A DNA stretch of 64,000 nt from Alphaproteobacteria bacterium. GTDB taxonomy: Bacteria; Pseudomonadota; Alphaproteobacteria; Micropepsales; Micropepsaceae. Shown piece after piece: positions 16,304 through 18,689 of the stretch. The number at the start of each line of letters is the position of its first letter. The first letter of the stretch is position 1. The DNA lies in the NCBI GenBank assembly GCA_028871345.1, contig JAGWNK010000003.1, forward strand, positions 62,001-126,000. The letters run 5' to 3'. Below the pieces are notes generated by a model. The model searched no databases and was not told where the DNA came from. It was given only the letters and a program-made list of their open reading frames with translations. The position numbers and the translations under genes were made by a program.

Positions 16304-16669
16304 TCAGGCAGCGTCGAACGCGCTCGTTTCATCGTCGCTGGCGCCGGGCTTGTCGCTGAAATGCTCGGGATACTTGTTCGGAACGCCATCCCATTGCGCG
16401 GCGTCGGCCGGCGGTATCCCTTTGCGCGTGATGTTGGGCCATTTCTTGACGTATTCGGCGTTCAGGCCGAGCCACTGTTCCAAACCCGTCTCGGTGTCCG
16501 GCTTGATCGCCTCGGCAGGGCATTCCGGCTCGCAGACTCCGCAATCGATGCATTCGTCGGGATGGATGACGAGCATGTTCTCGCCTTCGTAGAAGCAGTC
16601 GACGGGGCATACCTCCACGCAGTCCATGTATTTGCATTTGATGCAGGCGTCAGTGACGACGTAAGTCAT
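16304..16669 (-). CDS. fdxA: 7Fe-type ferredoxin FdxA
   Basis: The 121-residue protein begins [55 protein letters not shown]. The spacing supplies cysteines for one [3Fe-4S] and one [4Fe-4S] cluster, as in the Azotobacter FdI/FdxA group, and the C-terminal tail is the length typical of alphaproteobacterial FdxA. It is a cytoplasmic low-potential electron carrier. It lies convergent to the iron-uptake operon. Confidence 0.95.
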
Positions 16670-16853
16670 TGCGTACCCCTTTCGCCCAAAGTGAGGCGGA
16701 GCTGCGAAAATTCTCTTACGACAGTCACTCTGGGCGCCTTCAGCTTAGCGCACAAAGATATATATGCAATATTTCTTAACGTGACCGGCTGCGTCCTGAT
16801 GCCATCCCGGCGGAAGTCACGGCGCCCGGCGCACCGAGGTTGGCGCGACCCGT

Positions 16854-17219
16854 TCACGACGAAGTTGTGATCCTGAAGGGCGACCTGAGCGACTGATAAG
16901 GGCCTTCGAACGGGGCCGGCGTGACCTCTCGCCCGTCCTCCAAGACCGCACGGACGACGCCGTCCGGTCCACGGTTGCCGCCGAGGGGCGATCGTTCAAG
17001 CTGTTCCACCCAATAGAGCTTGGCGTCTTCCAGCCCGCTGCGGAAGCACAGGCTCTCATTGCCTTTGCGATGGCGCTGGGACGGTCTGTCGAGTTCGCAG
17101 GCGATCAGCCGCGCCGCGGCCGCCGACGGCGCGCACACCACCACTTCCTTCCAGATTCTGCGTCCATGCCACCGCGCATCGCCTCGACGCGCCACCGGAT
17201 GAATACGCCAGAGCGGCAT
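16854..17219 (-). CDS. Small conserved hypothetical protein (MPLWRIHPVA type)
   Basis: Starting at the ATG at 17219, after AAGGAAAC, the protein is about 121 residues. It begins MPLWRIHPVARRGDARWHGRRIWKEVVVCAPSAAAARLIACELD and contains GNESLCFRSGLEDAKLYWVEQLE. This resembles a small uncharacterised protein I have seen in Rhizobiales genomes, which supports a real gene. The LYWV block and the regular alternation suggest a compact alpha/beta fold. No signal peptide or membrane segment is seen, and function is unknown. Confidence 0.55.
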   Translation of the reverse strand: MPLWRIHPVARRGDARWHGRRIWKEVVVCAPSAAAARLIACELDRPSQRHRKGNESLCFRSGLEDAKLYWVEQLERSPLGGNRGPDGVVRAVLEDGREVTPAPFEGPYQSLRSPFRITTSS

Positions 17220-17610
17220 GTTTCCTTGTCCGTTCGGCCGCGCGATCCTGCGTTCGGGGCCCGGCTGCGGCGCCAACGCCGCCGGCTGCGAAACGCAAGA
17301 AGCCCGCCTAAAGATGCATAAATCATATATGTTATAGACGGCGATTCCAGGTGACAGAACATCACACGTTCGGATCGCCGGTTTGCCGGACGTTTACTTC
17401 TACAGAACGCCGCTCCCCGACCGGCAGGGTGGTGTGAACGTGGTGCGATTTTCGGTTGGTGGGTTTGTGATCTTCCTAACGACCGATAAGCGCTCTAATC
17501 CATCGTTCCCTCCGGAGAAATGTTGGCTCAGAGGGAAATCAGTGGGAACATTTCCGGTCGTGCCGAAACCGAGCCATGCGCGACGTAAGCGTTGAGGGTG
17601 CTATATTGGG
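17220..17610. other. Intergenic stretch with no supported gene
   Basis: About 390 bases of lower-GC sequence lie between the small conserved gene and the nuclease-like gene. The track ORF at 17383-17595 shows no family features. An AT-rich segment (around 17320) contains CATATATG and may be promoter sequence for the minus-strand gene. No other element was identified. Confidence 0.5.
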
Positions 17611-18468
17611 TCAGTCGGGCTTGCCGAACGACTCCCGGGCGTCTCGGACGAGTCGAAACAGCACCTCACGCTTCTTGCCGTTGACTTCGGCGTCGATGCT
17701 GAGTCGGTACTTGCCAGATCGACCGTCGTAGGCAAGGGCAACTAGGCCGGCGCCGTCAATCGTGGAGTCAGTTTCGTCTGTCTTCGGGATTTTGACCGTC
17801 ATGATTACGTGAGCGCGCTTGGGCCGGAACGAGACGAAGTTCAGTGGCGCTCCATCCACTTCCAGTCCGATATAGTGTTTGTTGTATTTGAGCTTCGCCT
17901 TCGGCTCGACCTCGTTCACCATTTTCATCAGTTCGTCCGTTAAGGCGAGCGTCTTCTTCGATCCCTTGGTAGTTTCCCAGAAGTTGCGGTCGGCAGGTTC
18001 GGCCACAGGTTCGTCATCATCGACCGGGCCGTATCGATTCTCGTCGATGACCTTCACGAACGTGAGAGCAACTCCGTCACCGACCTTGTAGGCGGTCATT
18101 TTGAGAGCGATCAAAGGGATTGCCCCATTGAACAGCTGAATGACGTTCAGGAACCGGGAAATGATGTCCTCGGCGACGATAACAGCAACGTGCTCGTACT
18201 GAGGGTAGCGCTTTCGCTCCATGTCCCAGTATTCGATCGTCCGAATTATGTGGCTCTCGTCGGTGGCCCCGAGCTGAACTTCGACTTCATACCGTTTCAG
18301 CGTCTCTGGGTCCTGGAGAAGGAGGTCCAGCACACCAGCTCTAGGTTGGCGACGCTCCTTGTCCTTCAGTTCAATGTCACCGAGGCCGAGAAGCGTTGGA
18401 TCATCGGCAATCAGCTGCTGCACCCACTTCTCGCCGAGCTGTCCAAGATCGAATGGTGCGAGCTTCAT
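17611..18468 (-). CDS. Orphan PD-(D/E)XK nuclease-like protein, probably SOS-controlled
   Basis: The 285-residue protein has an N-terminal segment compatible with a PD-(D/E)XK nuclease fold: an early helix with DDPTLLGLG, an Asp in GVLDLLLQD, and YEVEVQLG in place of the ExK strand. A conserved-looking helix (HIIRTIEYWDMERKRYPQYEHVAVIVAEDI) follows. The C-terminal part (LNFVSFRPKRAHVIMTVKIPKTDE...) resembles DUF5655-like domains attached to such nucleases. Base composition is visibly lower in GC than in neighbours. The gene reads away from the 3' end of tRNA-Gly, and two overlapping GTTC-N7-GTTC boxes lie upstream. Horizontal acquisition and a role in DNA repair or defence are inferences. It could be a catalytically inactive relative, because the usual Lys is replaced by Gln. 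Confidence 0.6.
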   Translation of the reverse strand: MKLAPFDLGQLGEKWVQQLIADDPTLLGLGDIELKDKERRQPRAGVLDLLLQDPETLKRYEVEVQLGATDESHIIRTIEYWDMERKRYPQYEHVAVIVAEDIISRFLNVIQLFNGAIPLIALKMTAYKVGDGVALTFVKVIDENRYGPVDDDEPVAEPADRNFWETTKGSKKTLALTDELMKMVNEVEPKAKLKYNKHYIGLEVDGAPLNFVSFRPKRAHVIMTVKIPKTDETDSTIDGAGLVALAYDGRSGKYRLSIDAEVNGKKREVLFRLVRDARESFGKPD

Positions 18469-18497
18469 GTCGTGCCCCCGGATGCTGTGGCGATTCA

Positions 18498-18527
18498 GAT
18501 TGCGATATTCTGAACTCCGCGGCGCGA
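18498..18527 (-). promoter_or_regulatory. Candidate promoter of the nuclease-like gene
   Basis: Read on the minus strand, TGGACA is followed after about 18 bases by GAATAT, roughly 30-60 bp upstream of the ATG at 18468. It starts just downstream of the SOS-type palindrome. The assignment rests on motif similarity only. Confidence 0.4.
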
Positions 18528-18542
18528 CTGTCCAACCTGATC

Positions 18543-18567
18543 TCGTTCCAGAACGGTTCTGGAACGA
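18543..18567. promoter_or_regulatory. 25-bp perfect palindrome forming two overlapping alphaproteobacterial LexA boxes
   Basis: TCGTTCCAGAACGGTTCTGGAACGA is a perfect 12-bp inverted repeat around one central base. It contains GTTC-N7-GTTC on the plus strand (18545-18559) and again on the minus strand (18551-18565). GTTC-N7-GTTC is the established LexA site in alphaproteobacteria. It lies about 75-100 bp upstream of the nuclease-like gene. Confidence 0.65.
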
Positions 18568-18569
18568 AA

Positions 18570-18590
18570 CTGTAAAACTCGCTGTAAAAC
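18570..18590. repeat. Direct repeat CTGTAAAAC (2 copies, 12-bp spacing)
   Basis: CTGTAAAAC occurs at 18570-18578 and 18582-18590, between the SOS-type palindrome and tRNA-Gly. Its role is unknown; it may be a by-product of insertion or a protein-binding site. Confidence 0.5.
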
Positions 18591-18615
18591 CGGTGAGGTG
18601 ATTTCAGTTAAGTCC

Positions 18616-18689
18616 TGGAGCGGGCGAAGGGAATCGAACCCTCGTATGCAGCTTGGGAAGCTGCCGTTCTACCATTGAACTACGCCCGC
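18616..18689 (-). tRNA. tRNA-Gly (CCC anticodon)
   Basis: The minus strand reads GCGGGCGTAGTTCAATGGTA and continues through an anticodon arm GCAGC-TTCCCAA-GCTGC, a T-arm GGGTTCGATTCCC and a genomic CCA end. The 7-bp acceptor stem GCGGGCG/CGCCCGC is perfect. The loop TTCCCAA gives anticodon CCC, reading GGG. The 74-nucleotide length is normal for tRNA-Gly. The 3' end faces the lower-GC nuclease-like gene, a common site for island insertion. Confidence 0.97.

Follow-up and report, generated by a model that had tools for sequence, protein, structure and literature searches.

A predicted nuclease from a little-studied, defence-associated family, probably the cargo of a decayed tRNA-Gly element

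Next to a tRNA-Gly gene, the window (i.e., the whole stretch of 64 kb of DNA that was analysed) contains a gene of 285 amino acids. Our verdict is that its product adds a new member to a family of defence-associated nucleases about which little is known, and that a decayed tRNA-Gly element carries the gene. With moderate confidence we read this product as a stand-alone defence nuclease. This is based on an intact open reading frame, the fold of the product, invariant residues, transfer between phyla, a defence neighbourhood and an element end that is shared with related genomes.

The tRNA-Gly locus

The locus comprises the following features:
17611..18468, minus strand: intact open reading frame with ATG start, 285 aa, PD-(D/E)XK (E-x-Q) plus DUF5655 (ORF call, Pfam, alignment, model, Foldseek)
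18616..18689, minus strand: tRNA-Gly(CCC); elements in related genomes have its 3' half, about 47 bp, as their duplicated core
17389..17610, no strand: unassigned stretch from the end of the 285-aa gene to the point where chromosomal similarity with the related genome G434 stops (comparison with G434)

The 285-aa gene is co-directional with tRNA-Gly(CCC) and lies downstream of its 3' end. The GC content of the gene, 0.53-0.58 compared to 0.60-0.70 on either side, agrees with the original observation of a lower-GC gene near the tRNA 3' end. From 17388 on, the sequence is again similar to G434, which limits the foreign stretch to 17389-18615 at most, although the left limit is not firm because synteny is also broken in G434. 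The adjoining stretch (16822-17388), which bears an ORF (16854-17276, minus strand), is 85% identical to G434; in that genome it is separated from the ferredoxin gene, so that synteny is broken. The ferredoxin gene beside the island (16304-16669) itself has two more copies with similar DNA (80-82%) in the same genome (on contigs C53 and C75).

With the tRNA region as query, a search of 60 genomes from the genus yielded a conserved element end, with these parts in the window:
18551..18615, minus strand: conserved element end, which begins directly behind the tRNA and runs as far as the second GTTC (alignment of six ends from five genomes of the genus)
18582..18590, minus strand: first copy of the direct repeat GTTTTACAG, a candidate integrase arm site (end alignment)
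18570..18578, minus strand: second copy of the direct repeat GTTTTACAG, 12 nt away from the first and likewise a candidate integrase arm site (end alignment)
18551..18565, minus strand: GTTC-N7-GTTC, the final conserved part of the element end, of the same type as the genome's own LexA boxes (motif scan, end alignment)

The sharing of this end after the tRNA bears out an insertion beside tRNA-Gly, as had been proposed. Beyond the second GTTC the DNA differs completely among the six ends. Further copies of the tRNA 3' half are present in genomes G033, G031, G003 and others, as expected of element ends, and two sister elements carry tyrosine integrases that are 46% identical to each other. The locus in these respects resembles tRNA-integrated islands with a tyrosine integrase, which use the 3' half of the tRNA as core. 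Unlike such islands, however, the window contains no integrase gene or remnant, and the tRNA 3' end is not repeated in it, so there is no target duplication to set the limits of the island. Judged from its sequence, the window copy is a decayed element that has kept its tRNA-side end and lacks the other end and the integrase. The notion of a single-gene island is correct insofar as one gene lies near tRNA-Gly, but the retained end belongs to a larger type of element of which the far end and the integrase have gone.

Other tRNA-Gly sites of the genus carry varied cargo. In one genome (L124, G033:C1:13500-33000) about 21 kb between two tRNA-Gly cores contain a type I R-M system (HsdR, HsdS, HsdM) and a tyrosine integrase. 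In G429, a protein of 302 aa without Pfam match (L128:3356-4264, contig C14), which has a PD-(D/E)XK-like stretch, PDICVLEQGRKVWIECV, is encoded between an integrase and an element end, and a 1330-aa nSTAND3-type protein (L129:2390-6382, contig C11), possibly a STAND-type defence gene, adjoins a tRNA-Gly element end; HipA adjoins another tRNA-Gly site. Pairs of tRNA-Gly cores only 3.7 and 2.5 kb apart (L132, G031:C3, and L133, G003:C66, respectively), to which no integrase was assigned, suggest the existence of very small elements.

The palindrome and the question of SOS control

Overlapping the element end is one further feature:
18543..18567, no strand: perfect 25-bp palindrome, TCGTTCCAGAAC-G-GTTCTGGAACGA, with arms of 12 bp (100%), 75 bp upstream of the gene

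As had been noted from the sequence, the palindrome contains GTTC-N7-GTTC on both strands. It is the only perfect inverted repeat with an arm of 12 and a loop of 0-3 in the 64 kb, where about 0.015 would be expected (64000 x 4 / 4^12). What the related ends have in common with it is the half nearer to the tRNA and the second GTTC; the extra symmetry that completes the perfect palindrome is specific to the window copy. The palindrome was also considered as a terminator of the tRNA and rejected: although it is predicted to fold into a strong hairpin (147 nt fold, z -2.4), it is not followed by a run of T, and a terminator-like site was not detected there.

GTTC-N7-GTTC is the published alphaproteobacterial LexA box (PMC3323433, PMC9578287). 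In this genome, whose SOS boxes were judged from the listed motif sites plus lexA and recA, both of these genes have a box of the same type, with GTTCTACTTTAGTTC upstream of lexA and GTTCCGCTATCGTTC about 200 bp upstream of recA (C82:64557-65345, minus strand). As a motif it is no rarer than chance, occurring twice in the window (1.66 expected) and 115 times in the genome (87 in the reversed control).

The gene had been proposed to be controlled by SOS. In a repair version of this reading, LexA would repress it via the palindrome and DNA damage would induce a NucS-like cutter of mismatched or damaged host DNA. This agrees with the box type of lexA and recA and with a nuclease core that is closest to EndoMS/NucS (see below). 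However, the motif was found upstream of none of the 86 homologues, where 0.6 would be expected by chance, and it occurs at element ends with other cargo, including those in G033 and G429, where the nearest gene is convergent. Both observations make it a property of the element end, and the proposed control of the gene is not supported. In addition, the single promoter-like match, itself near chance level, lies just downstream of the palindrome without overlapping it, and a housekeeping repair function is hard to square with a patchy presence among relatives, with transfer between phyla and with neighbours of defence type. We consider an SOS-controlled repair nuclease, therefore, very unlikely.

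It is somewhat less unlikely, but still doubtful, that LexA binds the GTTC pair as part of the mobile element, which would couple transcription or recombination of the end to DNA damage and would place the nuclease gene under this control merely by its position. GTTC-N7-GTTC is indeed kept in five of the six ends with five different spacers (CAGAACC, CAGGGAC, CAATAGC, CAGGGGT, and TGAAAAT), as it is at lexA and recA; the sixth end, however, has N6, and the helical spacing of the GTTTTACAG repeats carries on into the GTTC repeats, an arrangement that would suit integrase arm sites equally well. For the GTTC-N7-GTTC pair and the palindrome, the reading that fits best is a putative protein-binding site of the element end, for the integrase (arm site) or an accessory protein, and not as an operator of the nuclease family.

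Predicted fold and active site of the protein

Within the gene, the following parts were recognised:
18082..18432, minus strand: nuclease core, residues 13-129 (structure model; Foldseek to EndoMS/NucS)
17755..17967, minus strand: DUF5655 domain, residues 168-238, with a fold like the MotA DNA-binding domain and YjbR (Pfam, Foldseek)
18325..18327, minus strand: codon of Asp48, predicted catalytic Asp, invariant (86/86)
18274..18282, minus strand: codons of Glu63-Val64-Gln65, predicted E-x-Q catalytic motif (Glu63 in 86/86, Gln65 in 85/86)

A PD-(D/E)XK nuclease fold, as originally suggested, is supported by an AlphaFold2 model built from 51 aligned sequences, with a mean pLDDT of 91.1 and a disordered linker at residues 146-155; because its pTM is 0.58, the relative placement of the nuclease and DUF5655 domains is unsure. 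The N-terminal part of the model has the alpha-beta-beta-beta-alpha-beta order of the PD-(D/E)XK core (helix 13-22, strands 33-41, 45-52, and 58-68, helix 71-87, strand 92-101, helix 104-112, strand 119-129). The best PDB matches obtained with Foldseek are EndoMS/NucS (5gke and 2vld; E 9e-5 to 3e-4, probability 1.00); in sequence, the protein matched none of the solved chains. Further Foldseek matches are with the MotA DNA-binding domain and YjbR/DUF419 proteins and, from their size and type (the output is without residue ranges), we infer that these cover the C-terminal part. Among viral structures, Gp54 of phage G and a DUF5655 protein matched best. The sole Pfam match of the window protein, to DUF5655, is borderline (23.7 bits, compared to a curated cut-off of 24), and 37 of the 51 homologues match this domain at E 0.1 or better (best 3.6e-10), which substantiates the DUF5655-like tail.

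Glu13, Asp48, and Glu63 are invariant in all 86 family sequences and Gln65 occurs in 85 of these, a motif that is partly fixed by the search patterns used to collect the family; L003 has Met at the Lys/Gln position. However, position 64 is Ile in 46 of the 86 sequences, which the motif search pattern does not permit. These members must, therefore, have come from the other pattern (EYW), which is silent on residue 65, and Gln65 is thus a real feature of the family. The replacement of the ExK lysine by Gln in YEVEVQLG (residues 60-67) had been taken as a hint that the chemistry may differ; the replacement is shared by the family and also known from the E-x-Q enzymes BglII and NotI, in which Gln stands in for the catalytic Lys (PMC4081073). 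The superfamily pattern has an Asp on strand 2 and (D/E)-x-K on strand 3; the two acidic residues, Asp48 and Glu63, are kept throughout the family, and the Lys is the residue that differs. More particular to the window protein is Val46 (18331-18333), two residues before the predicted catalytic Asp, where 85 of the 86 homologues have Arg, and the protein might possibly be impaired by it. In a 70%-identical homologue from Gallionellaceae, the Gln65 codon is TAG (L011:10163-10165), the sole visible frame break near the active site.

Distribution and transfer of the family

One scan of GTDB genomes yielded 486 relatives from many phyla, 80 of which were kept. Conservation is strong, with 50-70% identity between phyla, and presence is patchy: a homologue was found in only 2 of the 61 near relatives and in 4 of the 387 genomes of the class. 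In the tree, the window protein groups with members from Verrucomicrobiota, Planctomycetota, Gemmatimonadota, and the beta/gamma groups, among them Ferrovum and Thiocystis (support 100/100), whereas the same-genus homologue of G033 falls in a separate alphaproteobacterial clade, which points to transfer between phyla. Metagenome binning errors could explain single rows of the tree but hardly the overall pattern. The phylogeny indicates that the gene was probably acquired horizontally and that the family has spread in this way. Homologues also occur on plasmids and four viral contigs; phage records contained no protein match.

The defence neighbourhood

A survey of the neighbourhood of the homologues found defence-type PADLOC matches from 156 nearest ORFs of about 73 loci. 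The nearest neighbours matched 89 and 176 PADLOC families at E<=1e-15 vs. 19 in a control of 121 ORFs, a comparison that counts families rather than loci, relies on PADLOC from 2023 and has exclusively alphaproteobacterial control ORFs, whose matches are mostly to methyltransferase and mad models. The 25 commonest families listed for neighbours of homologues include R-M I, IIG, III, and IV, BrxL, PglX, PglZ, and PsyrTA. In several loci the homologue has a direct, operon-like defence neighbour in the same orientation, namely Type ISP in L033, HsdM and HsdS-like genes in L053 and in L086, and BrxL in L093, and in L069 PglZ lies two genes upstream of the homologue; non-defence neighbours also occur, e.g., ThiC in L035 and rhomboid in L062. 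In an all-against-all comparison of 995 neighbouring ORFs no neighbour gene was conserved across loci. A fixed operon or conserved partner gene was rejected on this basis, as all clusters are small and the largest, of integrase type, covers 7 loci.

Many homologues also weakly match PADLOC models of candidate single-gene systems, i.e., PDC-S18 (32 of the 51, best E 8.6e-12) and PDC-S11 (up to 19), whereas the window protein itself has no PADLOC match. Together with the setting of relatives, which are found within or next to genes of type I R-M, type ISP, BREX, and PsyrTA systems, this supports the suspected role in defence at the level of gene association for the family.

The operon-like placement of part of the family in R-M and BREX loci would also suit a non-catalytic accessory or regulatory protein, a DNA-binding subunit with a nuclease fold that aids the neighbouring system, and the replacement of Lys by Gln, or by Met in L003, would be in line with this. 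However, no family member departs from Glu13, Asp48, or Glu63, a Gln at this position does not prevent BglII and NotI from cutting (PMC4081073) and the gene also occurs alone. We regard an accessory role, consequently, as improbable.

Comparison with known systems

With EndoMS/NucS (2vld, 5gke) the protein shares the fold of the nuclease core over about 112 residues and the order D...E-x-[K/Q]. It differs in having Gln for Lys and in its layout, since NucS has an N-terminal DNA-binding domain and a C-terminal nuclease (PMC8228993), whereas in the window protein the nuclease is N-terminal and followed by DUF5655. The NucS profile (PF01939) did not match the window protein, and one of 51 relatives gave a weak match to NucS_C (E 0.054). 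PDC-S18 and PDC-S11 are of similar length (302-358 positions); in the homologues, most of the similarity to PDC-S18 lies between about residue 100 and the C terminus, and some PDC-S11 matches extend over the nuclease part. Relatives score low with both, at most 43 bits, and we interpret these entries, which are treated as unvalidated (PMC12813430), as probable distant relatives of the family. With the type II restriction enzymes BglII and NotI it shares the Gln; there is no cognate methyltransferase beside the window gene.

Proposed function and implications

In the reading that we prefer, an integrative element would have entered tRNA-Gly(CCC) and later decayed, with the 285-aa gene as its cargo. 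The product would be a stand-alone PD-(D/E)XK DNA endonuclease, in which Asp48, Glu63, and Gln65, with the help of Glu13, may build a metal site like that of NucS; the DUF5655 domain may bind or check DNA. It would cut incoming DNA, presumably with an anti-phage effect, either alone or beside restriction or BREX systems, and host DNA would somehow be spared. A bolder version, which we think has only a slim chance of being correct as a whole, is that a widespread single-protein nuclease, with a NucS-type E-x-Q core and DUF5655 as sensor, acts alone on invading DNA and moves between phyla, and that it rides in this genus on tRNA-Gly elements whose LexA-box end ties mobilisation or expression to DNA damage.

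The family is large, strongly conserved and uncharacterised; our literature search yielded no paper on DUF5655 and nothing on PDC-S18, and PDC-S11 appears as a list entry in two papers. The shared tRNA-Gly element end provides a handle for listing defence cargo in the genus. If the protein is a self-sufficient defence nuclease, it would represent an easily testable single-gene system, and the NucS-type core would have a second biological role in addition to mismatch repair.
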